DNA of 64,000 nucleotides from Macrotis lagotis (Eukaryota; Chordata; Mammalia; Peramelemorphia; Peramelidae): positions 271,553,944-271,617,943 of the forward strand of contig NC_133662.1 of the NCBI RefSeq assembly GCF_037893015.1, in the 5' to 3' direction. Below the pieces are notes generated by a model, which did no database searches, was not told the origin of the DNA, and saw only the letters and a list, made by a program, of their open reading frames with translations. The position numbers and the translations under genes are program-made. The first letter of the stretch is position 1; each line of letters opens with the position of its first letter. Below are positions 1 to 60,589 of the stretch, in pieces.

Positions 1-1138
1 GAGACTTGGCCAAATTTAAGACCTCTTGGGATTCCATGTCCCATGTAACTGAGTGGGACTCGCAAAGTGGAATTCTCCCCCAACTCTGAAGCTTCCTAAG
101 GGTCTCATGCCCAGGGAAACATGAGTTACCTTGTTGGAATCTCCATTTATCCTGCTTCTACAGAAACATCCATAGTGACCCCAGGGCTCCGGTTGTTTTC
201 TTAGAAATGAGCATGGATTTGTTAAAAAAATCTCTTTACTGATCAGAAGAGCAAAGCCATGGCCATCCTATATATAGAACAATTTAAAATAGTTGATGCT
301 TTTGTTTTTTTCCATTTGTGGAAGCCAGGGAAATCCATTGGGGCTTAGGTGTGGGTCAGTGGCCAGAGAGGCACTCCATGATCTTCCCTTGGACCAGTAT
401 TGGAAGTATTTCTCTGGAGGAGAAAGTGAGGCTGGGGACTTGGCACAACCCACCTTGTTCAAATCCAATTCATGTGTTAGTCAGGGTGTCACCTCCCTGA
501 TATCAGAGTCATCTTTGAGAATGAAGGACAAGCATCATCAAAATTAGGAATTGCTGGGTGCTGGCAAGGGATCTGGGCCCACAAGATTAGTTAAGGTGTC
601 TCCTTGGTCTCAAACCCCTAGTAATGGCAGCCATGCCTGCTGTGCTGTGTGATTCTCAGACATGAAATTGCCTTTATCTAGTGAAGCCTGGTGACTTCTA
701 GGGGAGAGGTTTGCATGATAGGGTGGCACTTTCCCCTGTGAGCTGCAGAAATATGTACAAATTGAGAGGAAAGAGCCCTGGCCTGCAATGAAGACCAGTT
801 AACCCTTCACTAATTCACTGGGTGACCCTTGTCCTCTCGACTTCAACTTGCTTATCTACTAAATGGGGGGGGGATGTTATTGATCTCTAGGGTCAGAGGA
901 TCACATCTAGAAAGGTCGAAGGGACCTTCTAATCCCTTGATGCTACCTCTTTTGTTACAATGAAGACCAAACAAACCCAGGAGAGATGGCAGGGCCTTTC
1001 TCCCCATTTGTGAACTGGGCACCACAATAACTGAAGTGCCTTCCTTAAAGGGTGCCTATATCGAAGCCATGTTCTGGGCAAACATTCTAGGAAAAGGAGG
1101 CACAACTGATTTTTGTGGGGGCCCCCATCTCTTGGCAG
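1..1138 (+). other. FTCD intron 1, 3' part
   Basis: No coding sequence is seen. A short MIR-like stretch lies near 800-870, and a degraded CORE-type fragment lies near 895-1010. The acceptor TTGGCAG ends at 1138. I looked for the exon 1 peptide (human MSQLVECVPNF) and did not find it, so the FTCD promoter lies outside the window. Confidence 0.7.
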
Positions 1139-14582
<13,444 letters not shown>

Positions 14583-14910
14583 AGAGGCTGGCACCATCCA
14601 TGGAGAAGCACACCAACCCATTGCTCCATCCACCCATCGTCCATCCATCCATCCATCCATCCAGTTACCTGTCCTGCCCATCCACCTTTCTCCGTCCATC
14701 CTTCCATCCACCCATCCATACCCCTGTCACCATCCATCTACCTGTCCATCCACTCCTCCATTCAGTCCTCCATCTATCCTTCCATGTCTGACCCTGTCCC
14801 TAACTCAAAGACAAGCCCCCTGGCTCCACTCTTCCTTCTCAGAGGCGATAAGAAGAGAACAGTGGGGGGGGCAGGGTTTAAAAATAAACTTGTGATCAAC
14901 ACCTGAAGGG
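14583..14910 (+). other. FTCD: FTCD 3' UTR with poly(A) signal
   Basis: The 3' UTR follows the TGA at 14580-14582. It contains an ATCC/CCAT-rich tandem stretch (about 14625-14780) and then a canonical AATAAA at 14883-14888, the first after the stop. The cleavage site is expected 10-30 bases further on. Confidence 0.75.
14625..14782. repeat. Degenerate (CCAT)n tandem repeat in the FTCD 3' UTR
   Basis: Repeated ATCC/CCAT units with scattered changes are pure only at about 14639-14662. Being inside the presumed 3' UTR, the tract should be transcribed. Confidence 0.85.
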
Positions 14911-15009
14911 AAGCAGCTTCTGAGAGTGACCTGATGGTCAAAGGTTGTTTACTTGGCCATGCTTCCCTGTCCTGAGATTCTGCTCTTTATAAAGAATTTG
15001 ATCCAAACA

Positions 15010-15215
15010 AGATCACTTCCTTCTCTTCCTTCTCCCTCTTCTCTTTTCTCTTCTTCCCTCCCCTCCCCCTCCCTCTCACCCCCCACTTTCTTGTTCTCCC
15101 TCTCCCTTTTCATCTCCCCCCTCCTCCTCTCATCCACTTCTTCCTTCTCCACATTCTCACACTTCTTTCTCCTTCTATCCCATCTCTTCTGCCTTCTCTG
15201 TCTCCTTTCTCCACA
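15010..15215. repeat. Pyrimidine-rich (CT)-type low complexity
   Basis: More than 200 bases consist of C and T with few purines, just after the FTCD end. Open frames in this stretch come only from its composition. Confidence 0.9.
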
Positions 15216-15499
15216 CTTATGACCTGGGGTAAAGTCACTTCACCTCCTTGAACCTGTTTCCCCTTCTGTAAAACATGGTGGCTGGACCCAGTGGTGGCCA
15301 GACTCAGTGGTGTCCAAGGTCCTTTCCAGGTAGATCCTTTGAATCTCAGATTCCCCATACTTGATGCAGGGCAGACACTGAACCCGTTTTTGTGGAATTG
15401 AACTCCCTGGTGGGATCTGCCAGTCCCAGGGAGTGCCCACCCTCCTGGTCGACTCAGACTTCACATAAAATCAGATTTGACTAGCCTTAGTGTTTTCCA

Positions 15500-15660
15500 G
15501 GTGAGGGCGCTGACCTTTGATGGAGACCCGCCCAGAGGAGGGGAGGGTGGGGCTGCTCTGTGTCACCTGTGAACAATCAACTGACCTGTGACCCCCAGCT
15601 CAGGCAGGGGGTCCAGTGCAAGATTTAAGGTGTGTGCGGAGGTGCTCTGCCTCCCACAGA
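15500..15660 (+). promoter_or_regulatory. Possible regulatory segment downstream of FTCD
   Basis: A less repetitive stretch carries GCTGACCTTTGATGG at about 15508 (a nuclear-receptor/HNF4-like half site on the complement) and AACAATCAACTGACCTGTGA at about 15571. It also has a TATA-like AGATTTAAGG at 15621-15630. FTCD is a liver gene, so a liver element is conceivable. This is motif reading only. Confidence 0.2.
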
Positions 15661-15806
15661 GATCCCCCCACCTTTGCAGGGGTGCCTGGAATTCTATGTT
15701 CAATGCTTAGGACCCATGGCTCGCTATCTCAAGGACCTGCAAGAGGCCTGTCCTGCATCCCTTCCCTGATCATTTTGTCTTCATTTTGGGCAGTGCGGTG
15801 TGGGGT

Positions 15807-15940
15807 GGTGCACTCTCAGGATGCCCACTGATGGAGATTCAGGCAGAGAGGCCCAGCTGCAGAGCAGCCAGGGCTGAGGAGGTCCTTCCTACAGAGACCA
15901 CGCTGTCCATCTGAAAGGGGGAAACACAGGCAGGAGCCCC
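15807..15940 (+). repeat. Inverted repeat, left arm
   Basis: About 134 bases match the reverse complement of 16771-16905 with roughly ten differences. Example: AGCAGCCAGGGCTGAGGAGG here, and its complement at about 16829-16848. The spacer is about 830 bases. Neither arm matches a repeat family I know. Confidence 0.9.
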
Positions 15941-16770
15941 AAGGAGAAAGCCCCCCCACCCCGAGACCTCCTGAAGTAGCCAGAGACCACTTTTGAAAGT
16001 ACCAAGAACTCCAACTGGAGGCATTGTGATGATGGGGGGGTGACTGGACAATCATGGCCAAGGACCCACTGGGCTGCTAAATGAGGAAGCCTGGTGTTCT
16101 GGTGTTCTGGTGTTCTGATGGATACTTTTTGTGAAGTGAGCCCTATCTCATAATGAAAGGAGAGGGTGACGCCAAGGTCACCAACCTCGAGGAAGCCCAC
16201 TGTGAGCTAGGTGCTGGGGAGGCAGACAAAGGGGGTGGACAACAAGGCAGAATGGGGGACTAGATCCCCACAGGACCTGTTGCCCACTTTTTGACTTTGC
16301 GGTCCTCTTTTGTTAACCGGGGCAGGGTTTCATGGGGGACTCTTGGGGAGGGACAGTGATGACACAAAGTCGAGTCATACTGATCCACTATCAAAAAGGG
16401 TAGAGGCAGAGGGTGGGGGCTCAAGGGTCAGGGAATGGGTTGGGCTCCTGGGGGATGTGTTCTGGTTACAGTCACAGGCAGAGGACTACTAGAGCTGGGA
16501 CTTCAGAGACCACCGAATCCTGCCCTTATTTCACACAGGAGGAAACGGAGGCCTAGAGGGGAAGTCACTCACCCCCAGCCACTAACTAGAAGAGAGGAGC
16601 ATGGCATTTGGAGTTGGAAAGGACCTTGGTGGTCATCTAATGCAGCTCCTTTATTTGACAAATGTATAAACTGAGGCACAGGGTCACATCCATTTGGCCC
16701 TCTGTCGTTGTGTTCCTCCTTTTCACCACAGCAAACATCAGGTACCCCCTTCCTAGCCTGCTGATTAGAA

Positions 16771-16905
16771 GGGGCTCCTGCCTGCGTTTCTCTCTCTCAG
16801 ATGGACAGCGTGGTCTCTGTAGGAAGGACCTCCTCAGCCCTGGCTGCTCTGCAGCTGGGCCCCTCTGCCTGAATCTCCATTGGTGGGCATTCCTGAGAGT
16901 GTGCC
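16771..16905 (-). repeat. Inverted repeat, right arm
   Basis: This is the partner of 15807-15940. On the + strand it starts GGGGCTCCTGCCTGC and ends CTGAGAGTGTGCC. It holds an acceptor-like TCTCTCTCAG just before ATGGACAGCGTGG, and the same ATG and a 23-codon open stretch occur in both arms. I do not call it a gene. Confidence 0.9.
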
Positions 16906-17170
16906 ATCCTTCCTTTGGTGGTATAGCTGCCCCCTCCTGCCATGCTGTGTTGTGGGTCCCTTCAGGGCCCACTGGGGGCCTGCCCAGGGTGTGAGTCTCT
17001 TCTTATCAGAGGCCCTGCGGTCAGGTGGATGTGAGTGTTGGCACTGCTGGCACACGCCCTTCTTGGTATAATGCAGGGGCCGCTCCCTTCCTTCACCTTG
17101 TCTAAGGGTGTCCAGCCTGGGCGTCCACTTCCTTGCAGCAGATCAGATCTGGGCCCCTCTTTTCTGAGTC

Positions 17171-17300
17171 TTTTGATTGGCTGAGAGAGGCTGCCTCTGG
17201 AGGCCAGCTCCAGCATTTAAGGGGAGACCAAGCTGAGAGCAGGAGGCTGCCCGGTCCTGCCTGCTGCCTCTGCTCTCATCACTCGGTGGAGGCCCCTGAG
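17171..17300 (+). promoter_or_regulatory. Candidate promoter and non-coding first exon
   Basis: An inverted CCAAT box (GATTGG, 17175-17180) lies about 33 bases before a TATA-like CATTTAAGG (17214-17222). A GC-richer stretch of about 55 bases then ends CCCCTGAG at 17300, followed by GTATTT, a possible splice donor. It lies 4.7 kb before the ATG exon of the PRR13-like gene and has the same strand, so it could be that gene's 5' UTR exon. No transcript evidence is available. Confidence 0.3.
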
Positions 17301-18967
17301 GTATTTCTTGATTTTATTTGTATTATTGAGTGGAGTTGTGAGGAGTACAGGGGCTGCTATCTGTGGGAGTGGAGAGAAAAGCTAGGGAATCCAGGGGCGT
17401 TAAAGTCTTGCGCCATATTGGTGAATTGTGGGCTGTTGCCATGGTTTCCATCCTGGCTCAGTGACTTCTAACCCCTCTTTCCCCTTCTCCAGTCCCCTCC
17501 CCTCTTGGGCTCAGTCTCCCTTCCCTAAATCATAGGGATCAGATTGGGTCATTTCCACATCCCTGAGCTTGGTTCAGTCCAGACATTGCTGCCATCTTGC
17601 CTGGACATGGCACCCTCGTGACTTGGAGGCTCAGCAGGGACACAGGAACAGTTGGGTCTGTTTCTACATTGGTTGGGGGGGGGCAGCCCTTGCCGCTGTT
17701 ACGTCTCTACTGTAGAAAGAGACAGTTGGCTATCTCTGCTCGGGTGCCATCTGAAAAGTAGGGTTGAACCACTGGGACTGTTGACTAGGAGAGAAGGCTC
17801 AGGGGTCAATGAGAACTGTCTGGAAGTGAAGGAGTGTGGACCCCCAGATGCCACAACCAGGGACAATGGTGCCACATTTCAAAGAGGTCAGTGTAAACTA
17901 GATTAAGAAAGTGAGTGGTTTGGAAGGGGAATGGGCTTCCTCAGGAGGTAATGAGTTCCCATCCCTGGATGTATTCAAGCAGAAGGTGGATGACCCCTTG
18001 TCTAGAATGTTGGGAGGAGACTGGCATATTGGTCTCTGAGGTCCCCTCTCACTTAAAATTCCCACATGTAGACACCTTGCCTTATTCTTGGAGGGGAGGG
18101 CCCAGGTAGATTTGAGAGCCCCAAGAAGGCTCCCTTTGAAGGGGAGCCTTGCATTGTCTCAGTTTGTCAGGGAGGGACTACAGGTTCTCTAAGTATGGGG
18201 CAGGGACCACAGCCCTGATGGGTCCCACCAAGTCCAAGGAGGGTCAGAGCCAGGCCCAGGGCTCTGTCCTATTCTGCTTGGCCCAGGACCCAGCTTGTTG
18301 ACATTGGGGGCTCATTGTGGCCAGAAGGCTGCCTCACTGGGAAAGGACTGCTCCCAGCAGAGCAGGAGGACTAAGGCACAGAGGGTTTGGGGTCTGCATT
18401 CATGGAGGGAGGACCCAACAATGAGGCAACGTTGTAGTTGTCGTTCTCTACTCGAATTCCTTTCTCCATTCAGCACAATTCATTTCAATTCATAGGTTTC
18501 AAGACAGAATTAGAAGGGATGTTGGAGGTCCTGGAAACCGAGACCTAGAGAAATGAATTGACTTATTCAGGGATATCAAGTAAATCTCTGTGCCAAGATT
18601 CAAACCCAGGTCTTCCTGATTCTAAGTCCAGGGTGCTATCCATTGTCCCACACTTCCCCTCTGTTCCATTCAATGCGAATGACCTTCATGGAGCTCATTG
18701 AGCTCCCTCTGCTTCAGTAAATAGATAACCATGTAAAAATGTACAGAGGTGCCTGGTGCTGGGGGTACGGGGAGACCTGGGCTCCTGGCTATCACTTGGA
18801 AGATAAACAACTGACATCATTAGTGCCTGAAGTCCCTGAGGCAACTCTGAGTCTACTAATTTGCCCTCCCCAAGAGCACTGGCAGCTCAGCACCCTCCCA
18901 TTCTTCCCTCCTCAGCTTGAGGATGGGGTAGGCTCCTGAGCCCCCTCTTTCCTCAGCTTCTGTGGCT

Positions 18968-19069
18968 GTGGTGTGTGTATGTGTGTGGGGTGTGTGTGTG
19001 GGGGTGTTTGTGGGTGTGTCTGTGGGTGTGAGTATGTGTGTGAGTGCGTGTATGAGTGTATTTGTGTGG

Positions 19070-19112
<43 letters not shown>

Positions 19113-19152
19113 CATGTATGGGTGTGTCTCTGTGTGTGTGTGTGAGAGAGAG
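18968..19152. repeat. Imperfect (TG)n tract
   Basis: A long TG-rich tract has GGG, GA and AC interruptions. It is pure only near 19071-19111 and ends in GAGAGAGAGA. Confidence 0.95.
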
Positions 19153-20495
19153 AGACATTTTGCTTTTATTTTTGTTAACCTTGGCTCCAGTCAATCCATA
19201 AAACTGACTGTCAACTTGCCCATCATGAGCCTGCAGGGGTTAGTGTGAGGTGGGCTAGCTGCAGAGTTGGCCCACGTTAAAATTCCACACTCTGGCATCT
19301 GTTATCCATGAGCCTGGGCGATCCATTCCCCACTTGGAGCTTCAGTTTTCCTTATCTGCAAAATGGGAATAGTAACTTCTCTATAGCACCATCTCTTTTT
19401 CAAGGTGATTTACGTATCTTACCTTATTGATTAAACAAGAGATGATCATGATATCGCCTGTGCTGCAAGATCTGGTCATTTAATCAATAGTTAATCCAAA
19501 TACAGAATTGGTAATTCTGAATTGGCTCCACTCAACTGTCCTCTAGGTCACTTGTCTCCATCTTGTCTGCAAGAAAAGCAGGAGAGACTGCATCTTTGTA
19601 AGATGAAGGCCAATTCTGCCTCCAGGATTTCATGAATCTTGGCATGGTCTCTTTGTGATGAAGTCATACCAGGTCTTTGGGTTCACTGCTTCCTTTTCTG
19701 TGTGCCCACAAACCATCCCTTTAATAATGTGCTTTGGAATTTGACTGAAAGTCAAGGTTGAGCATGGGGCCTGAAGTTTTCAGACTCCATTCTCTTCCCA
19801 TTTTGGAACACTTGAATACTGCCCTTCTACAGACCTCTAGCATGTCTTACCTCAACAGTCCTGCCTGCCAGCTCTCTCAGGGTGGGTGAGTGCTATTTAC
19901 CTGGGTCAAGCGACTGGAACTTATCAAGTATGGCCAGGTATTTTCTTACTATCGCCTGCTTATCTCCATTAACTAAGTCCTTTGTGAGGCCAGCCTTGTT
20001 CTGTCCTTTCTAGTCCAAAGTTCACTTTGCTCAGCAGAGAAAGAACAACTTAAGAGCTGCTCCCTTAGTGTTATTGCACTATTAGCTGAGAGGGGTTGGA
20101 AGGCTCTGATTCATCTGATTGGTTCCATGGTACTACCCATGTCTCAGAGCCAAGTCCCAAGAGATCAAACCAATGGGTAAATGGACTTGAAGGTCAGTGA
20201 GATTTTCAGAGAGGTTATTGAAGGAAGAAAGGCATCAGGAAAACCCTGGATAACCTAGGGTCAATAATTCCCAAATGGAGGTGGGATGAGGCCCCAACTT
20301 TGCTTTCTCCAGAACTTGCCCCTTAGGGGTCCTGGTCTGTGATACAGGGTGGAATTCACCAAAATTTCCAGAGATGATGTGCCCAGGAGGACTAGGGCCA
20401 GGGGGAATGCCATCTGTGGCTTCATCAGCATGGTGCCCTCTCCATCAATGTCTTTCTCAATGGATATCCTTTCTTTCTCCTAATCCCCTTTTTTA

Positions 20496-20498
<3 letters not shown>

Positions 20499-20546
<48 letters not shown>
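20499..20546. repeat. (TG)n microsatellite
   Basis: A pure TG run follows TTTTTATAG. The surrounding 19.2-21.99 kb shows no gene that I can support. Confidence 0.95.
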
Positions 20547-20548
<2 letters not shown>

Positions 20549-21994
20549 TTGGTTTCGTATCCTCAGGGCCTAACACAGGACTTGATTCAGAGCAATCACT
20601 TGTCTGTTGGTAAGGCCAGAAAGATTCTGGTCTGAGCTTTTCCAGACTCAGGGGCCTGGCCCACCCAAAGACAGACTGCACTGACTGACCAAGACAGGAC
20701 CTGGAGCATTTCCAACTTGGTAGAGCCTCCCTGAGCCTGTACCACACTGGCATAGCTTCACAAAGAGCAGGTCTTGCCCTCATGAAAAGAGAAATATCCA
20801 ATTCACACATAAACACACACATTCCAGGGGAGGGTAGAAATAGGTTCAAAGTCCACAATGGGCATGGGAGGGGTTACACCAGGGCAGGACTTCCAGGGAG
20901 GGCACGTTCATCTTCTCTACCCTTGACTCATGGCCAGCCCTGCTTTTTAACATGCACCTGGAAACCTGATCCAGGTCTTCTAAATCCTCACCTGTCTTTT
21001 TCCAACTTCCTCTTGGTCCAAGCTGAGTGCAGGTAATCCTGAGGCCTCTTTTCTTATTCACACCTTCCATGTGGCTACTCTTACTCAAGTACCAAGATTC
21101 TACTTCCAACCTCTTTGTAATTTTCCTGTTCTTTCCCTCCTCTTCTGCTTCTTAAGTCAGAGTTGAGGTCTCAGATTGAGCTACCTTGGTCCATGAGCCA
21201 AACTGTAGCAGAGGCCACTGACATTCTGGTGACTGTGCCACTATAAGACTAGATTGCAGCTCAGTTGAGGTAGACCAGCAGGCCCCATAGTAGGACCTTC
21301 TCTTACTATTTGCAGATGATAAAATATTATTGACCTGAGCAATGATTGAAGTCTGTGATCATGGGAATGGTTCATTGAGCACACAAAAGGGAGCAGAACC
21401 CTTATAGATACAGAGTGGGTCTTGGGGTCCTACCAGCCAGGAGCACTGCCAGCATAATCTAGGGTAGAACTAATACTCTGAAGATAGGCATCTGACTTAC
21501 ATTCTGCTAACTGCTGGAGCCAACCTGGAAAGAATTCTGCCTCTCAAGGCCTTTCTTTCCGATGGCTGCTGCTTCTATCACTTTCCAGGGAATTGGAAGA
21601 GTTGGAGGATTCAGAATGAACCTGCTGAGCTGGGTGTGTTTTTGACCACACTACCAGTGGGGAGGTCTCAGTTTCTTCATCTCTAATGTGGGAATAATTT
21701 ACCTAGTGATAGATTTGCTGATAGGGAATGTTCTTTCCTTCTCTACTGGGACACTCATTCCTCTTCTTTATTCTAGCTGTTGTCCATGATCATGGAAAAC
21801 CTGAGCATTTCTAAGTGATAAAGATGAAAAAAGACTGGTTGTAGAAGGCAGGTTAGAGGCTGTTGAGAGAAGGCCCTTTGAAAGACTAAGTGTTTTTCCT
21901 AATGTGCGTAAGATATTACTCCATGGGGGATGGGGTAAGTTAGAAGCAGGAGGATTTTGCATCCTGATAACCACAAGGTACTTCTGTATTTTAG

Positions 21995-22016
21995 GTGACA
22001 AAAGGAGGGGGCGGAT
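21995..22016 (+). other. 5' UTR part of the PRR13-like ATG exon
   Basis: An acceptor-like CTTCTGTATTTTAG ends at 21994, followed by 22 bases to the ATG at 22017. The base at -3 is G, which is adequate for initiation. This suggests an upstream non-coding exon, perhaps the one at 17.2-17.3 kb. Confidence 0.5.
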
Positions 22017-25000
22017 ATGTGGAATCCCAATTCAGGTATGGTTTCAAAGATCTGCCTCTTCTCTGAAAGATGGGATGTGAGGGGCACAGGATTCTTTTGG
22101 GGATGCCATATCTTATTTAAAGTTGGCAAATTCAGGGAGCTCAGGTAGGTCTTTGATCAGTGATTTGGGGGTACCATAAGGAAGGCTTTTCATGAACTGA
22201 TAATCTTATCTTTTTTATAATTTCCATCAAATAACAGACAACTCATGAGGTACTCTAATGCAAAATAGTCGTTACACAGTGGCCTTAGAGTCCAGAAGAA
22301 TTGAGTTCAAGGCATATCTCTGACACATCTTGGGTGTATGACCTTGGGAAAGTACTCAGTCTTCTTTTTCCATCGTCACCTCTCCAAGGTCGAGACTCTG
22401 GTGTCTGTGTCTTAGACCCACTGTGGGCAATCTGGAGAAGCCTGGGGACCCTTCTCAGAATCATGTCTTTTAAACAATATAAAGAAAAGCTGAATCTTAG
22501 AGGTTAGTGAAAATACTGATGGAGTTGTTTTCCAGCCAAGTTCACAGGCCCCTTCCACAGACCCCTAAATCCATGGAAGAATTGTACTCACTGCAAGGAC
22601 ATGTCCAGTCTCAAATAGGAGGGTGCTGATGTTTGGATTAGAAAGTGATTTTCCAGTGATGATCTAGGATCTGACTTTTCAGCATCTGCACCACCATGTT
22701 AAGTTTCCAGGACTTGTGATTTCTTGGGGCATGGAGGAATGCCTCGATTTACAAGGTCAGGTTCCACCAACACAGATTCCATATGAGTTCTAGAGTCAGA
22801 AGGGATCTCAGAGGATATCTAACCCACCCCCCTCCTTTACATATGAGGAAAGTGAGGCCCAAAAGGCTAAATGGTTTTCCCAGGGTCACACAGGCAGGAA
22901 GAGGTCAAGCTAGTCAGACAATAAACATTTAATATGGTGCCAGGTACTGTTAAGTGATGGGGATACAAAAAGAAAACCAAAAGGCAACCCCTGCTCTCAG
23001 GGAGTTTACTGTCTAAAAGGTGAGACAAAAGACTAAGTAGAAATGACCAATTTATGAGAAAAATGGGAAGTATTCCACAGAGGGATGGGAAAGGAGCTGA
23101 CTTTGGGACCAGAGTCTTTGCCAAGTCCTGTTCTCTTCCTGTTGTGACAAACTACCTTTCCGGATAGTCTTCTATGGTGGCCACCCTGGTGGGTATCCTC
23201 TTCACCCTTTTCTGAATCTGTCTTTTGGCAGCCCACACACAGCCAGTCCATCCTTGGACTCCGACTCTGGGTCCTTCCAGCCAAATAGAGCCTTCCAGAT
23301 TTGGATTTGGGGACATCATTCTGGAGAACCCAGCACCACCTGTATTGCACCAGCAGATAGTGAAGGGGTGAAGAGATTGGACAGAGGGACAGATTGTTCA
23401 TCCTCAGGAAGCCTGAGAATGTCAGCTATAGAATGTAACTTGTTTGACTTCCAGCCACTGGGCCCAGGAAGATTGGACTTTTTGGTCTTATGTCAAGGTC
23501 TAAAAAGTACAATTTGTTTTTGGAGATCATTATCCTCTCATTTTATCAACAAGCAAATGGGTGATATCACTTACTCTCTATCACCCATCATAGCTAACAT
23601 ATGGTGCTCAGGACTCAGACCCAGATTTTCTGTCTCCATACCCATCACTCTCCTTCAGAAAACAGATTTTTTCCTGAAGTCTTTCTAGGCAAGTGAATGA
23701 ACTCTTTCACAAACATTCATTTATTGTTTTACTCTTAAAAACAATAATTAAGGGAAAAGCATTGTACATAACTTTATTCCTGTGTGATCTTGGGAAAGAC
23801 CCTTCTGCTTCAACCTCAGTTTCCTTATCTGTAAAATGAAGAGAGGTGGCCTCCAAGGTAGCTTCCAGTTAGTTCCTGCTCTGGGATCTTAGTTTTCTTC
23901 TAGGTACATCATCCTGATCTTCAGATTAGGAAGAATACTATAATTCTTGGAATGGACACGTGCACCTTTGGCAGATAAAGGCAGGTTAAGACATGGAGGC
24001 TCATAAGGCTAAGGTAGTTTTCTCCAGAAACTTCCAAAAGCTGCCTCAATTCCTGGAGGAATGGCAGCTTCCTATGGCTTAGTGGGTCCCATGAGTCTCG
24101 GTGTGGCAGGCAGTCTCTTGGATTGCAGAAGTTTCAGCATTGGGGTAGCTGGGTGGGTCTGATCTTGGATCTCATGGAACATGGTGGAGGTTGAATAAAA
24201 TCACATAGGTAAAGGGTTTGAGGGTTTGTAGCATCTGAGGATGGAGGGAGCCTCAGAGAAGGATGAGTGAGGTCAGCTCTGTAAATTTGTAGATGAAAAT
24301 TATCAGCCTCTAGAGGGGAGTTGATGTGGTCTGGGATGCCAATCAAGGTCCCTTTTGAATTTATTTAGGTGGGAAGAGTAGAAAATTGTGAATGATCTTA
24401 CCAGTGTTCTTCTTTTTTTAAAAATAGGAATACCACCACCACCATATATCCAAATCTGTCCTCCTCATCCATCCTCGGGGCCTAATACAGCACCAGGTCC
24501 CATGCCAGGTTATCTTGGATCAACTCCTTATCCACCTAATGTTCATCCTGGTGGTGCCCCTGGGCAAAGTGGCCTCCCTTCTCATGGCCACCACGGTCAT
24601 GGCCACCATGGCCACGGCAATGGCTACCATGTTGGCCAGGTACCACCATGTCCCCCAGGAATGAACCCAGGACCACCCGCCTGCCTGTCCCCCCAGCCTG
24701 GCTACTCTTCTACTCCAGGTGGCCATTCTGGGCCACAGCATCACAAACATAATAAACATGGTCCTGGACACCACTGCCATAAGGTAAGTATCCAGTGTCC
24801 TCAGAAGGAAGCATATTATAGACATCTGAAGGTTTTGAGGAATGGAGAATGACCTCAAAGACAAAGCGTCCCCTGACTATCTCTTGCTGCCTCTACTGCT
24901 GAGCTTCTAAAGACAGCAAGTCCCTGTCCTGTCCCATGCTTACCACTGGCCAGCCCTCTCCATGGCCTTCTTCCCAGTAGACTCTCTCCTCATTCTTGTG

Positions 25001-27387
25001 GCTTTTTTTCTGGTCCCCTCCATGGACCTTTTTCTTCTCCTTGGAGGACCAAGGATCCTCCATGATCCTTCTCCTAAGTGGGTCACTATTGGCTGTGCTT
25101 CTTTCCCTTCCTTTCTGTGGCCCAGCTGCTCCTTGTCTTTCTCTCTTGAGAACTTGGCTTTCACTCCTGGTCCCCCAGACGGGGGCATCTCGCAGACTCT
25201 GTCCTCCATCCTTTTTTATTATTTATTTTTTAAATTTTATTACCTGTTTCCATATCATATACCACTAGGAGAATATAGGGTCCTTGAGGGAAAGCATCAC
25301 TTTTTCTATTTAGTCTGTGCCTTTCACATAGCACACATTTAATAAATATTTATAGTAATAATTAATTTAAAAACTTAGAAGTAGTTTTAGATAAAATGGT
25401 TCATTTGGTCTACACAAAAACAAAACTGTGAAATAAATATTATTATTATCCCCTTGTGCAAATGAGGAAACTGAACTTAAGAGAAAGTAAGTGATTTCTC
25501 AAGGTCACACATCTGATACATGTTTGAGGCAGGATTTGGAATCAGGTTTTCCTGACTACAAATTTAGTTTTCTAAGGACTGCCTGGGACCTACCTAGTAG
25601 GTGTTTAATAGTTACATATTAATTGGTTGACATGAGTTGTTATTTGTACAGGAAACTCCTACCTGAAGAAAATTCTTCTGGAATACAAGCCAGACTATTG
25701 AGATATTACATAGGTTGCTTGGGGTGGTGCAATGGATAGAGCACTGGACCCAGAGTCAGTAAGCCCAAGTATAAAACTGGCGCCAGGCACTTCACTTCGG
25801 TCTCCTCATCCGTAAAATAGGGATCATAAGAGAACCCACCTCCCAAGGTTATCAGGGGGTCAATTGGGATGGGATTGTAAATGACTAGCACATAAGAAAA
25901 TACCTGTTAATAAAATACTTGTTCCCTTTTCCTTCCCTTGAGTGATTTGCAAGATGTTGCTTGAACCCAAGTCTCCCTGACCTTGAGGCTGGCTTTCCAT
26001 CCACTTTGGCCTCTGTAGCCCAGACAGAAACTGGTTTATAGAAGAGTGAGAGGCAGTTCCTGCTTCTAATTCTTTCTCATGAAAACACGGTTTTTATGGA
26101 ATCTAGTTTCGAAAAGTTAGGCGATGATCTTGGAATTAGCAAGAAGTCAAGTGAAAATATAGCAAATATATGCTAATTTAAAGTAAAATGAAAACTAATG
26201 CAATCTTTGACTGAATTAAAAGAAGACTGTGAAGGACTATTTAGGCAATAGTTCATTTCCCCTAATAGATCACATATGGCGATTGGGTTCTATTCCAAAC
26301 AAGGGGAATATTGATAAACGAGAGAGCCTCTCAGGAAGGCAACCAGAATGGGGAAGAGGCCCAAATTTATGTTTTCTGAAGACTTACTGAAGGAACTCAA
26401 AAGGTTTTGCTTAGGAAAGAAGAGACTTGGGAGGGCATAACTGCCTCCACATATTTTAAGAGTTGTCTATGTGTAGTCGCTGGCTACTTGGGTTCAATTC
26501 TGCCTATGAAGAATCATTATTCAGACTGGGAAAGCATGGATGGAAATAAAACAAAAATCTATTAAAAAGGTTAGGGGAGGCTAGGTGGAGCAGTGGATAG
26601 AGCACCAGCCCTGGAGTCAGGAATACCTGAGTTCAAATCCGGCTTCAGACACTTAATAATTACCTAGCTGTGTGGTCTTGGGCAAGCCACTTAACCCCAT
26701 TGCCTTGCAAAAAAAAGTAAAAAAAAGGTTACAAGACATAGGAAGAGCTAGAGAGAAAAAGATAAAAGAACAGCCAAGTAGCCTTGGCTGGGCCATTGTC
26801 AGAGAAGACTGCAGGCCCCTCCATCCTTTTTTAAAATCCTCTTTTCAAACATTTCTGGAGATCCTGTACGGTTCCAGGGAGGCAATGATTGATCAGCTCT
26901 CTGAAGATGACTCCCAAATCCCCATGTCCTTCATGATTTCTCCCAGAGCTACAGGCCTTCATCTCAACCTCTCTCCTGGGTATCTCTTCCAGAATGTCCT
27001 GCTGACATTGCAAATTGAACTCATCTCTTTCTCTACACTGTACTCTCTTCCCCCCTTTCTATTTTTGTTTTCATCAGGAGCCAGGTTCTTCATTTGCAAT
27101 CATCTTTGATTCTTATTCTTTATTGCCATCGCCATCCATCTTTAAGTCTTTTCTGACCTGAAGTCCCAGTGTCCTCCAGAAGGCTATTTCAGAGTTTTTC
27201 TGAAACAGAGTAACATTACCTGCTCCCCTGACCCTTTGTTTCTGGCTTCTGGGTTGCCAGGGCAAACCCACTGGACAGTGCCCTTCATGGCCCCAGGCAC
27301 TGGCCAGGCTTGATCCAGAGACTCCTCAAAATGCCTCTCTTTCAGCATCATCACCGGCCCTGTAGCTCAGACTCTGATTCAGACTGA
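22017..27387 (+). CDS. PRR13-like proline/glycine/histidine-rich protein (three coding exons)
   Basis: Exons are 22017-22035, 24428-24783 and 27346-27387. They give 138 residues. Exon A encodes MWNPNS plus one base and ends at GTATGG. Exon B opens after TTTTTTTAAAAATAG with GA and ends HHCHK before a strong GTAAGT. Exon C opens after CTCTCTTTCAG and encodes HHHRPCSSDSDSD and a stop. Phases agree at both junctions. The body is rich in P, G and H: TPYPPNVHPGGAPG, a HGHHGHGHHGHG run, VPPCPPGMNPGPP, then HHKHNKHGPGHH. Human PRR13 (148 aa; a nuclear protein tied to THBS1 repression and taxane response) starts MWNPNAG, has PYPPN, ends in a basic His/Lys stretch and closes SSSDSD. The shared start, end and layout point to a PRR13 family member; its own function is unknown. 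It has no signal peptide or membrane segment. Human PRR13 lies on chromosome 12, so this is a paralogue or moved copy. Introns argue against a retrocopy. Confidence 0.75.
25717..25925 (+). mobile_element. MIR/CORE-related SINE in the PRR13-like intron 2
   Basis: A tRNA-like head (GGTGGTGCAATGGATAGAGC) is followed by a body with CCTCATCCGTAAAATAGGGA and CACCTCCCAAGGTTATCAGG. This is a full-length but old MIR-type marsupial SINE in sense. Confidence 0.7.
26574..26726 (+). mobile_element. tRNA-type marsupial SINE, sense, in the PRR13-like intron 2
   Basis: The head GGTGGAGCAGTGGATAGAGC (first G at 26584-26585), body and A-rich tail are all present. Flanking AAAAAGGTTA on both sides (about 26564 and 26722) looks like a target site duplication. 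It appears complete. Confidence 0.85.
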
Positions 27388-27545
27388 GGTGTGACAGCCA
27401 GCCAGTGGAGCCTGGAGGAGGAGAGAAGCCAACCACTACCTTATGGATCTTCCTGTGACTGGATCTGCTCCTGCTCTGCCTACTCTCCCACAATGACTAA
27501 AGCTGTCTGCACTGAAATTAAAATGAGGTTCCTTTGGGAGCTCTG
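27388..27545 (+). other. 3' UTR and poly(A) signal of the PRR13-like gene
   Basis: The UTR is short and ends with ATTAAA at 27517-27522, 130 bases after the stop. A T-rich stretch follows at 27563-27572. Confidence 0.6.
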
Positions 27546-29984
27546 ATTACATTTCAGCATGGTTTTTTTCTCCCCATGTAACCCTTGAGTTGGAGACCAT
27601 CCTGTGGGATGAAGAGCCCAGGGACATATAGAGAGGCTGGGTGCCCCCTTAGCTCACATCCCAGTGCCCCCTAGAAGCCTAGGAAAATTCACTGTGGGAG
27701 CATCATTCAGGAGACTTTGCTTGTGCCCTGGAGTATGAGATGACAATAGCAGAAGGCAGTTTTCTTACAAGGTGGAAAACAAGAGCAGATTTCTAGGAGT
27801 AAGACTTAGTTCCAACTTTAAGATAGGGCTGACCCAGGAGAGGCCATTCTTTATAAGCCTGGGTTGGTTCATTGCTCCTTAGGCTGAATCCTATATTCCA
27901 AGGAAGGACCTGAGAATGGTGGGGGAGGGGGCGGGGGGGGCATCCTTCTCTCTGTTCTTCCCTTCTCCTTTTCTCCTCTCTTCCTTTATGCACATTCTCT
28001 TTTCTTCTTTATCCCTTCTTCCCTTTTTCCTTCCTCTTTGCTTCTCCTTTTCAGTGCTACCTCCTCTTTCCATGATTAGAGCAAAAGAACTTCCAGAAGA
28101 TGCCCTTTCTTCCCTGGTTGCCCTTGTCTTTCCCTGAGATTGCTACCCCTAAAATTTCTTTAGTCTCCTCCTGGTTACCAGTCAGATCCATCATCATTCC
28201 TGTCCTTTGAGATGGACCGTCTTTATTTTTCTCAGTTATGCAAATGGACAGAGAAGGAGGATGGGGTAAATATTCCAGGACAGTCTGCTCTAAAAATAAG
28301 GGGAAAGACAAATGAATACAAAACCCAAAAGTTGACCAATCCTGTGAATTGGGTGTGGGGGGGAGATTTCCAATCTCTGGAGAATCCTAAGTAAACTGTG
28401 AACTTAGATTCTATGGTTCTGTGTCCAAGTTACAGATCTGCTACAGACTTTCTGGGAGATGTGATTCTGTCAAATAGTTGTTTTACTTTCCATCCTTCAG
28501 CTGCAAAATAGAGATGATGCTTGAGTCACTAGGTAAGAGCAAAAGATAAGATTGAACAAAAACACTATTACAGAAGTAGTGTTGTGTAATTGAGAGCTAA
28601 CATCAAGGTCAAGGAGACCTGGATTCAAGTCCTGCCCCAGACACATAGGGCTGTATGACCTTGGATAAGTCTCTCCCCCACTCAGTGCCATAGAAAATTC
28701 CCACCCTACAATCCAACCCCACCTCCACATCCACCGAAACCCCATTATTGAATACTCTGGAAGACCACCTTGGACTTAGAGACTGGGGCAGTGAAAAAGA
28801 ACCCTTCATATTGTCAGCATCCCATTGGATGCCACATTACATTGTATTGAAGTCACATGCAACAAACAGTGAGCACCCAACAGGTGTGTGCTCAGGTGAC
28901 TTCCTAGATCTCTCTTCTCTTGGCAGCTGCATGGAGGAGCTTGGAAGTAACAAAATATGGGTTTGAATTCTGCCTCTGGTGCCCGGGAAAGTCATTTCCC
29001 CATGTCTGCCTCATTTTCCTCATCTGTCAAAAGGAGATGATTAAAGCCCCCATTTCCCATTGCTGTGAGGAGTAGACGAGCCACTAACAAGAATGCACTA
29101 TGGAAACATCAGTTGTTATTGCGGTCAGAACATTGGTATGGTCCCTGGTTGTGCCCACTGAAAGCATCTGTTGGCTAATATAGAAATTTGTTGCATTTTT
29201 AGCTTTCCTTTAGGAATTTTTCAGTTCACCCACTAGCAACAAGGACCTGATAAGCACCTGAAGACAGACCAAACTTGTTATATAGCATTTAAGGAACAGA
29301 AATGAGATTCACCTATTTTTAAGTCGAGTTATTAAGGAACAATTAAAAAACCACCAGCTGCAGGGGAAGTCTCAGAAGTGTGAGTGGAGTTGGGGGGTTG
29401 CAGGGAAGGCAGGACCCAGGCATCTCCTTTTGTGGCCACCTTTTTCAGGAGACTGGGCACCGTGTTAGTGGGCACACAGTCAGTGTAGGAGAAATACTTA
29501 GTGGTTGAATGGCTGCCCACTTTTCCTGAGAGCATGCCTGGTAGGCCTCCAGCTTATCTCCTGACTTGGCTCAAGAACCCTTGGCACTGCCCTGAAGCTG
29601 CTGCATCTGCCGTGCCCGTAGACTCCACAAGCTCACCATGGCCCAGATGTCCTGCCATTTCTGCACATGCTTCCCTTCCTTCCCAAAGATATTCTACTCT
29701 TTTCCATTCAACTTCTGCCCCTAGAGATCATGGCATTGGAGACCAACATTTAATCTAACATGGGAAGAGATCCAAAGTTTGGATAAGTCACTGTATCTGC
29801 ACTCCCAGATGGAGCTCCCAGGCTAGAAGATACTGTCTGGGAATGGAATTTGTTTCTAAACCAGAGTATTCAAACAGGAGTTATGAGCCCCTTGCCAAAG
29901 AAAAGAACAGTTAATAGTAAAAAATGGAATCTTGGAAACCTAATGAAAATCCTCAAAGCACTTTACTGAAAAATAAAGGGAAAT

Positions 29985-30170
29985 TGCTTAAAAATGACTA
30001 CATTTTTTGTACCCCTTGGCTCAGCAATGGGCATATTTACCAAGGAGGACAAAAACTAGAAAAAAGAAGTCCCATATAAGCCAAAACATTCATGGCAGCA
30101 TTTTCTATGATAGCAAAGAAGTGTAGTTCCAAATAAGTTCCCAAAATGACTGGATCAAACAACTATGTAT
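29985..30170 (+). mobile_element. L1 ORF2 3'-end fragment
   Basis: Degraded text resembles the end of L1 ORF2. It includes CTTGGCTCAGCAATGGGCAT, then CATTCATGGCAGCATTTTCT and ATAGCAAAGAAGTGTAG. It is a short remnant in sense on the + strand. Confidence 0.55.
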
Positions 30171-30218
30171 TGGTTTTCCATATCGCCTCTAACTCTAATT
30201 CCATCTTTTGTTTTCAGA

Positions 30219-30497
30219 TTTTTTTTTTTTAGTTTTTGCAAGGCAATGGGGTTAAGTGACTTGCTAAAGGCAGGGGTGGCTAGGTGGTGCAGTGGATAGA
30301 GCACCGGCCCTGGAGTCAGGAGGACCTGAGTTCACTTTTTTTTAGGGTTTTTTTTTTTTTAGCAAGGCAATGGGCTTAAGTGGCTTGCCCAAGGCCACAC
30401 AGCTAGGTCATTATTAAGTGTCTGAGGCCAGATTTGAACTCAGGTCCTCCTGACTCCAGGGCCGGTGCTCTATCCACTGCCACCTAGCCGCCCCCCA
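30219..30497. mobile_element. Nested/inverted cluster of three tRNA-type SINE pieces
   Basis: In order: an antisense tail piece (30219-30272), a sense head piece (about 30275-30336) and a complete antisense copy (about 30337-30497). The sense head (from CTAGGTGGTGCAGTGGATAG) and the third piece are near-perfect inverted copies of about 53 bases with a roughly 100-base loop. Confidence 0.8.
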
Positions 30498-31375
30498 TCT
30501 TTTGTTTTCATTGTCAATTTACTGTATGAGTTGAAAAGTCAAAGTAGTTTTGCTGTTCATTTTCCTTGTTAGTGATTTGGAGCAATCTTTGATGTGGTTG
30601 CTGGTTGTTTGCGAGTCATTTTCTGACCACCTATCCATTAGGGAAGGGTTTTTGCTAGGCCACCTTTTCCTTCATTCCCTCTGGAGCCTCATCAGAGTCT
30701 TACCCCTCCCTCCCTTTTGAGGGATTCTCTCTGGCTCTTAGCTTCTGCTAAAAACAATGAGGATAATGAGCATTTCTATCATCTCTTGCTTAACAAGCAT
30801 TAGCATATATGATCCTCATTGCAACCCAGGGAAGTAGGGGATAATATTATTCCCATTTTTTGGATGGGAAAATTGAGGCAGACAGAAGTCAAGTGACTTG
30901 CATAGACTCCATCCACCTCCAAATGCCAAGATCTTTTTCGACCCATCTATTCATGGGGTAGCTCTCCTTTCCAGTTCTATGCCACTTGCCAGTTTGATAA
31001 GCCTGCCTGCCAGTTCTGCCTTCCTCCATATCATCGGTTGGACAGCACAGATTGCTGGGCACTACCCTGAAGACCCCCACCCAAGGTGATCCATCTCTGT
31101 GTTTTTTGGCTCCAGTCAGTCTATGGAGTCTGAGTTTACCCAGCTACCCAGCATTGAACACACAGGATGAGAATAGGAGATGGGTCATCTGTGGATGAAT
31201 GGGAGTGGGATGTGGAATTTCTGGGTTATTTAGCCAAGTGACCCAGGATTCTCTGTGGGAAGAACACAGAAAGCCAGGTCAGCTAATAGAAAGATCACCA
31301 GGGTCTCAGACCCTCTCACCCTCTAGAACCAATCAAAACACTGTACTCTAATTTGTATTGGGAGGTAAGAAAAAG

Positions 31376-32966
31376 TTTATTGGTCAAATGTCACAATGTT
31401 TCCAGAAGAAATGTGCTGGATTTTAATTCTACGACTGAGCCTGTTGCCCCCATTGGCCTAGGTAACTCAGAGGAGCAGATGGGGATCCCCCAGCTTCTCC
31501 AGGAAGGGGATCAAGGACAGGCCAAAGGAAAGCTGAAGAGGAGGTCTGCAGCCTGAGTGGGATGGTGGGAAGGTGGTGGGGGAGTTGAAGGGTCCTCACT
31601 AGAGCAAACAAAGGATTGGGTGATGTTCCCAGGACCTGGGCAGTGACAGTGGGAGCTTAAAAGTCTGCCCTCCAGCCTCCCACCATGTTTTCTGAGGGAG
31701 GTCAGGTTCACTCTTAAGGTCACATGGTGGCCATGTGAGGGAAGGCAGATCCAAGGGCAGGGAGGGATCAAGAGACCAGCAGAGGTGCCCAACTCTGGCT
31801 AAGGACAAGACTCTCCTTGGCTTGTGGTGGAGCAAGGGGGTGAATCAACAGCACTTATGGAGCACCGAGTGTATGCAGTGCTTCTCCATGACATGAGAAG
31901 GATGGAATCTTGTCTCTGCTCTCAGAATCGAGGTGAGATAGGAGAGGCAGGTGGAAGGAAAGGGCTAAAAGAAAGGTACCAAGCAGCTCTCTCAGCAAAC
32001 AGGGACCCTGCAGGGGAGGCCTCCATGAGCACTAATAAGGCAGGGAGCCAACCAGATGGGAATATGTCCTTGGTGCTGGAATTCCCAAGGGCTATTGGGG
32101 TGAGTGGAGAGGACCTGGGGGAGCAACCCATGCTGGGAAGTAGGGGGGTGGAGGAAGAGGACCCATGCATGGGGGGAGTAGTGATCTTGGGGCCAAGATA
32201 CTCATATGGGAGGGGGCAGAAGAGACATGGATGAACTCCAACAGGGCTTGATGTAGGGAGGCCATGAGTTGACAATGGTAATTTAGGAAAAGCTTTCCAA
32301 CCTGTTCATGGGATAGATTGGAGGTTGACCAGGCTTCCTACCCACACAGATCAGGGATGCCCAGATTCTGTGTCTGGAAGCTCTGCATCCACCTCTGCTG
32401 GGAGGGCCCAGGGAAAATGAGAATTCATCTCAGGGATAGGAGTAGAAGGTCTATAATCTGGACTTCACCAGTCTAGTGTGGGAATGAGGAAGGGGAAACC
32501 CTTTGAGAGCATCCTGACTTGTGACACCCCTTTACCTCATGTTGGGGGGGGATGCTGAGGTCTCTCCTCTAAAATGACTCTGATCTGGATCTTTCTTGTA
32601 CCCATGCACATTTATACATACACACACAGAGTGGGGAACTATTTGATACTTGAAGAAGCATTGGAAAGGTTTTGCTATGGCTCTGAGGCCTTCTGGGTTC
32701 TTGTTCTGTAGTAGCACCATTAAAAGTTCAGAACTATTTACTGCTTGTTGTTCATCATGAAAAATCCAGATCCATTCCTTCCTGGCCTGTAGGGGTTTCA
32801 GGGAAGTCCCACCAGGCCAAATTGTGGTTACCCGTCACTGGCTGAAATCAAAGGAGAGGAGGACCGCATCTCACGTGTTTGAGTATATCTGTGTTCAGGG
32901 GTCAGGATGGGGTGGGGGTGAGATGTAATGATTGGGACATGTGCCTTCTGAAACCTTGGGTGAGAG
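31376..32966 (-). other. COL6A2: COL6A2 3' UTR with two poly(A) candidates
   Basis: The first candidate is the variant hexamer AGTAAA at 32742-32737, 225 bases after the stop. The first canonical AATAAA is at 31381-31376, giving a 1.6 kb UTR. I cannot tell which is used. An old interspersed-repeat-like stretch (about 31,840-32,080) lies between them, which favours the nearer site. Confidence 0.35.

Positions 32967-60589
<27,623 letters not shown>

Follow-up and report, generated by a model that had tools for sequence, protein, structure and literature searches.

A gene model related to PRR13, here called PRR13L, lies between FTCD and COL6A2 in a 64,000-nucleotide stretch of the Macrotis lagotis genome (hereafter the window: assembly GCF_037893015.1, contig NC_133662.1, positions 271,553,944 to 271,617,943 of the forward strand). 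PRR13L has an intact spliced structure, a coding signature, the architecture of PRR13 and neighbours that parallel those of PRR13. Judging from sequence, it is very likely a functional protein-coding gene and the second PRR13 copy to come from an early-vertebrate duplication of a block holding ITGB2/ITGB7, PRR13 and PCBP2/PCBP3. The duplication was most likely part of the two rounds of vertebrate genome duplication (2R). PRR13L is probably transcribed and under purifying selection, and the human/eutherian line appears to have lost it from between FTCD and COL6A2.

PRR13, also called TXR1, is a little-studied gene that has been linked in reports to taxane resistance and to the control of thrombospondin; its product is reported to be a nuclear protein that lowers thrombospondin-1 expression. 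To our knowledge, it has been treated as single-copy. An intact ohnologue whose ends are conserved and whose middle has been swapped would be a natural experiment on the roles of the parts of PRR13, and PRR13L is also a candidate eutherian gene loss at the well-mapped 21q22.3. It illustrates, too, how genes with coding exons of 19 and 42 nucleotides (nt) and no Pfam domain can escape annotation. The names PRR13-like and PRR13L, and two spelled-out forms, were not found in the literature searched, although RefSeq or Ensembl may already carry a predicted locus, and papers pairing PRR13 with marsupial or gene-loss terms included none on PRR13L as judged by title or the start of the abstract. In one paper that contains the string MWNPN, it belongs to a peptide of ACHE.

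Gene structure and coding signal

Three plus-strand exons, at 22017–22035, 24428–24783 and 27346–27387, are spliced in phase across two GT-AG introns. Their sizes of 19, 356 and 42 nt (the last including the stop) add up to a coding sequence of 417 nt, or 138 codons plus TGA, and the predicted protein of 138 residues runs from MWNPNSG to CSSDSDSD. A sequence-only reading of this DNA had proposed the same model, and its exon coordinates and in-phase GT-AG joining proved exact to the base. The MWNPNS start and SSDSDSD end that it named as PRR13 hallmarks also held up: in a six-frame translation of the window, MWNPN occurs once and SDSDSD followed by a stop occurs once, both at PRR13L, on the plus strand, in order and in phase. 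The features of the model are as follows.

21995–22016 (+): 5' untranslated part of the start-codon exon, behind the acceptor TATTTTAG/G
22017–22035 (+): coding exon 1, MWNPNS plus 1 nt, phase 1; PRR13 has the same 19-nt exon
22036–24427 (+): intron 1, 2392 nt, GT-AG, phase 1
24428–24783 (+): coding exon 2, with the Pro/Gly-rich body, an HHGHG tract and a His-rich end
24784–27345 (+): intron 2, 2562 nt, GT-AG, phase 0
27346–27387 (+): coding exon 3, HHHRPCSSDSDSD plus TGA
27388–27545 (+): probable 3' untranslated region, with ATTAAA at 27517–27522, placed from sequence only

Splice sites were scored with matrices of consensus values and ranked against all GTs (n=3302) or AGs (n=5238) of the window. 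Donor 1 (CAG/GTATGG, after 22035) falls in the top 1.3% and donor 2 (AAG/GTAAGT, after 24783) in the top 0.06% of GTs, and acceptor 2 (CTTTCAG/C, before 27346) is in the top 3% of AGs. The acceptor that ends at 21994, 22 nt 5' of the ATG, is in the top 2.6%, which would imply a further, non-coding 5' exon upstream. At the other end of the gene, the ATTAAA begins 129 nt 3' of the stop. Neither of these two features figured in the sequence-only reading.

The openness of exon 2 is weak evidence by itself, as the frame survives in 375 of 5000 dinucleotide shuffles. The codon-position composition of the exon was reached by none of 5000 shuffles. In a scan for codon periodicity, the top 25 of 2122 overlapping window positions are confined to the COL6A2 VWA exons (32.9–33.2 and 43.8–44.0 kb) and PRR13L exon 2, whose own frame ranks 19th. 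Within the HHGHG tract, the third base varies among the repeated His and Gly codons (CAC/CAT, GGC/GGT), and according to Tandem Repeats Finder the exon contains two short rows of two copies each, at 24591–24631. When the whole genome (3.66 Gb in 607 contigs) was searched, the protein encoded by exon 2 gave a single match at E ≤ 0.001 (all 19 of 19 candidates scored), and exon 3 with the 3' untranslated region likewise gave a single match. A retrocopy of PRR13L, sought genome-wide as a sign of transcription, was not found. Taken as sequence, these data support PRR13L as an intact spliced gene model of the PRR13 family that is distinct from PRR13.

Two minor features lie in the introns. Intron 1 holds a 195-residue stop-to-stop open frame (window 23101–23688, plus strand) that has no Pfam match and is probably due to chance, and intron 2 holds, around 26583–26715, a probable SINE-like repeat (short interspersed element).

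Comparison with PRR13 in the same genome

The first-exon pattern ATGTGGAAYCCNAAYNNNGGT occurs at four places in the genome: PRR13L, PRR13 itself (C2:253.61 Mb) and one place each on contigs C3 and C4. As candidates for further PRR13-like genes, the C3 and C4 matches were set aside as chance, no PRR13-like exon being recognised in about 9 kb downstream, where open frames of at least 45 residues rich in P/H/G or of more than 120 residues were inspected along with acidic tails. The true PRR13 stands apart on C2, with 41% identity over aligned residues to PRR13L on C5, and it shares its architecture with PRR13L. Its coding exons are 19, 365 and 45 nt with phases 1 and 0, and its protein has 142 residues, compared with 138. 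In both genes MWNPN lies in a 19-nt first coding exon ending in phase 1, followed by a large Pro-rich exon; after an intron of phase 0, both genes finish in a short exon that starts with His and has a Ser-Asp end. Both proteins have a Pro/Gly-rich body and an HKHxKHG motif before the tail. An AG precedes the ATG by 19 nt in PRR13 (noted by eye, unscored) and by 22 nt in PRR13L (scored), each a predicted site.

The differences are concentrated in the middle of the protein. PRR13L is without the Lys-rich KKxKKxKKAHKK segment that PRR13 carries before its His/Ser tail, and has 4 Lys and Arg residues in place of 12, 21 His in place of 8, and 3.6% Cys compared with 0.7%. Where PRR13 has a poly-Ser run, PRR13L has the short SSDSDSD end.

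In a global protein alignment, 52 of 128 aligned residues are identical between the two, and the score was reached by none of 3000 whole-sequence shuffles. On its own, the body would be insufficient proof of homology, which is argued instead from the two ends, the exon layout and the neighbouring genes.

Duplicated neighbourhoods

A PCBP gene is found in the neighbourhood of both PRR13 and PRR13L. On C2, a distance of 15 kb separates PRR13 from two exons of PCBP2 on its strand, so that the two genes are directly side by side, and a genome search with these exons gave 19 matches. Only three loci carry both exons separately at intron distance, namely PCBP2 on C2, a locus at C5:271.88 Mb that is 75–77% identical, and a locus on C8 that is 62–68% identical. 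The C5 locus can be provisionally named PCBP3 by its identity and place; PRR13L does not adjoin it as PRR13 adjoins PCBP2, the distance being 298 kb. The chance that a random place would lie as near to either of the other two PCBP loci is about 3e-4, a figure computed after the distance was known. The remaining 13 of the 19 matches either span the exon join or consist of adjacent pieces, a pattern typical of processed copies. Apart from the three loci, eleven places on C1, C3, C4, C8 and C9 match across the join, some of them free of stops with open frames of up to 280 residues, and one (C9:336504962) is 96% identical over the 83-residue query; these are probably PCBP1 and processed copies.

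The integrin-beta VWA family gave 38 matches in the genome at about eleven places. An exon 0.32 Mb from PRR13, at C2:253.93 Mb and again at 254.00, has integrin beta-7 as its best PDB match; for the exon that lies 1.36 Mb away from PRR13L, at C5:272.95 Mb, the best match is integrin beta-2. The PCBP2/PCBP3 and ITGB7/ITGB2 pairs, which we take to be 2R ohnologues, therefore occupy the same two regions as PRR13 and PRR13L, and both of those pairs are kept in human. Because the architecture of PRR13 is shared and the paralogous neighbours run in parallel, PRR13L is neither a retrocopy nor a tandem copy. As a separate observation, the ITGB7-like exons near PRR13 occur twice with equal scores (C2:253927338–253931750 and 253999811–254004224) at a spacing of exactly 72473 bases, which looks like a tandem or assembly duplication.

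Published gene lists place both blocks in human. A passage of PMC5477234 gives ITGB7 through AMHR2, PRR13 and PCBP2 at 12q13.13, and a sheep list excerpted from PMC12717993 groups the same genes as this human set. For 21q22.3, a list in PMC12779367 gives ITGB2, PCBP3, COL6A1, COL6A2 and FTCD, and the first 300,000 characters of that text hold no word in the list starting with PRR. PRR13L is in this respect unlike the PCBP2/PCBP3 and ITGB7/ITGB2 partners. In turkey, the part of PMC8470100 that lists one chromosome-7 region has ITGB2, FTCD, COL6A2, COL6A1 and PCBP3; PRR13 is not named there, in a list that holds named genes only. Since both blocks are present in human, the duplication is most likely older than the split between marsupials and eutherians, and, with both blocks retained in human but no PRR-named gene in that part of the 21q22.3 list, PRR13L was probably lost on the human line. 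The sequence-only reading had stated that human is not known to have a PRR13 at the FTCD-COL6A2 junction; the 21q22.3 list, as far as its text extends, agrees, and this single human list makes up the eutherian evidence.

Observations against the proposed origin and alternative explanations

Several observations count against PRR13L as a functional ohnologue. Acceptor 1 (AAAAATAG/G, before 24428) is the weakest of the splice sites, in the top 13% of window AGs, and the upstream non-coding first exon was not located. Between FTCD and PRR13L there is no CpG island, the maximum observed/expected CpG ratio being 0.49 at 41% GC; the ratio for the whole window is 0.14, and low ratios of this kind are a feature of marsupials. 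No Pfam family matches the 138-residue protein, and no relative was found among PDB sequences, viral contigs or prokaryote contigs, as would be expected of a disordered vertebrate protein.

Other such points concern the comparison with PRR13, where the similarity of the bodies appears to be mostly one of composition. When shuffling of residues was confined to blocks, the score of the alignment between PRR13L and the same genome's PRR13 was reached in 2 of 3000 (24-residue blocks) and 29 of 3000 (12-residue blocks) cases. Against a provisional human PRR13 sequence, 12-residue block shuffles reached the score 30 times in 2000 for global and 211 times in 2000 for local alignment, and 1 of 2000 whole shuffles did so in local mode. 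BLASTP found no match between PRR13L and this provisional sequence, probably because the sequence is of low complexity. At the nucleotide level, the alignment of PRR13L with PRR13 scored 40, and the best of 300 shuffles scored 39.

The last points of this kind concern the blocks. PRR13 and PCBP2 share a strand, unlike PRR13L and the PCBP3-like gene, so that the order is not collinear and at least one rearrangement is needed. A third integrin locus, on C7, has integrin beta-1 as its best PDB match and an exon layout similar to those of the ITGB2 and ITGB7 loci. One-exon identities are 53/82 for ITGB2-ITGB7, 51/82 for ITGB2-ITGB1 and 45/79 for ITGB7-ITGB1; as ITGB1 is nearly as close to ITGB2, the exon alone does not pair beta-2 with beta-7. 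As a side observation, equal-score integrin-beta exons are found on C509:73130–77646 and at the C7 ITGB1 locus (C7:71324050–71326976), with some matches differing, and the small contig C509 is probably an unplaced haplotype contig.

The alternative that survives best, although we consider it unlikely, is that PRR13L, as the remains of an ancient paralogue, is a unitary pseudogene that died recently or is now dying, its frame open by luck and its protein without function. It would fit with a gene known from genomic sequence, with the missing CpG island and mediocre acceptor 1, and with a body that is relaxed and repeat-rich. A very recent death, moreover, can leave a copy intact: in simulations of neutral decay of the PRR13L coding sequence without indels, 316, 38, 6, 1 and 0 of 3000 copies were intact at 0.1, 0.2, 0.3, 0.5 and 1.0 substitutions per site. 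With indels, at an assumed 0.08 per substitution, 18 of 3000 remained intact at 0.1 and none of 3000 at 0.2 or above, so that simulated copies of this kind are nearly always broken by 0.1–0.2 substitutions per site. PRR13L itself shows no stop or frame change and has four canonical splice ends. The genome also provides examples of what decay looks like, in two processed PRR13 copies at C2:269863392–269863795 and C5:78336755–78337173 (84% and 80% nucleotide identity to PRR13). Both are already broken by in-register stops and frame-changing gaps; in the alignment control, true PRR13 with its introns, three small gaps also appeared and were taken as an artefact of intron edges. These pseudogenes align across both exon joins, whereas PRR13L keeps its introns and an unbroken frame, and PRR13L is far more diverged from PRR13 than either of them, yet without a stop or frame change. 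Their existence also implies past or present transcription of PRR13 in the germ line.

Improbable, to a slightly greater degree, is a marsupial-specific PRR13 duplicate that was relocated beside FTCD and evolved fast. A low-complexity protein evolving on a long branch could look older than it is, and the lack of collinearity between the blocks would be accounted for. Preserved introns and phases, on the other hand, speak against a retrocopy, and such a duplicate would have had to land near paralogues of PRR13's own neighbours. PRR13L is also equidistant from the two PRR13 proteins, with 51 of 129 residues identical to the provisional human PRR13 as against the 52 of 128 given above; own-genome and provisional human PRR13 share 89 of 136. 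The sequence-only reading had left the choice between a lineage-specific paralogue and a gene lost in eutherians. With equal distance to both PRR13s and the PCBP2/PCBP3-like and ITGB7/ITGB2 flanks duplicated in parallel, the former is disfavoured and loss in eutherians becomes the better of the two, a loss seen so far as absence from the portion of one human 21q22.3 list described above.

That PRR13L is no gene at all, being a GC-rich low-complexity open frame joined by chance to two tiny exon-like motifs, is extremely improbable: open frames are common in such sequence, as the shuffles showed, and ATGTGGAAYCCNAAYNNNGGT recurs on C3 and C4, where the 9 kb downstream showed no recognisable PRR13-like exon, but the two terminal motifs each occur once in six frames, ordered and in phase at PRR13L, and coding periodicity, PRR13-like architecture and parallel neighbours accompany them.

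Possible function

As a functional ohnologue, PRR13L may encode a small disordered adaptor, a suggestion made with low confidence. The unchanged MWNPN N-terminus and the acidic Ser-Asp tail would be docking ends held in common with PRR13, and the tail includes two candidate CK2-type sites, recognised by consensus motif only. Between the ends, the lysine-rich and probably nuclear-targeting segment of PRR13 would have given way to a His/Gly/Pro-rich linker with a possible role in binding Zn, Ni or Cu or in sensing pH. PRR13L would in this way retain the partners of PRR13 and act elsewhere or in other conditions.

A more complete scenario can be proposed as a tentative possibility. PRR13L would be a 2R-old gene still under selection in marsupials, and perhaps in other non-eutherians, and would have disappeared from the eutherian stem lineage as the FTCD-COL6A2 interval shrank; having begun as a Lys-rich nuclear protein, it would now be a His/Cys-rich partner in the same pathway that senses metal or pH. 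If this is true, eutherians are without one branch of PRR13/thrombospondin control.

Neighbouring genes

The placement of PRR13L between FTCD and COL6A2, also put forward by the sequence-only reading, agrees with the mapped ends of both genes, the former on the strand of PRR13L and the latter convergent with it.

1136–14582 (+): FTCD, upstream neighbour; this span begins at the FTCD_N match and closes with the stop codon, its exons are partly mapped, and earlier ones may precede
32967–60656 (-): COL6A2, downstream neighbour; this span reaches from the stop codon to the limit of the open frame that holds the first VWA domain

Across 14500–32900, Rfam gave nothing above its cut-offs. FTCD is supported by the Pfam family FTCD_N, by FTCD_C in 5 of 51 open reading frames and by the PDB entry for FTCD, 1tt9; its last exon, with the stop at 14580–14582, was presumably identified correctly by comparison with FTCD sequence. 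COL6A2 is supported by its VWA domains, with collagen VI alpha 2 as the best PDB match, and its stop is at 32967.

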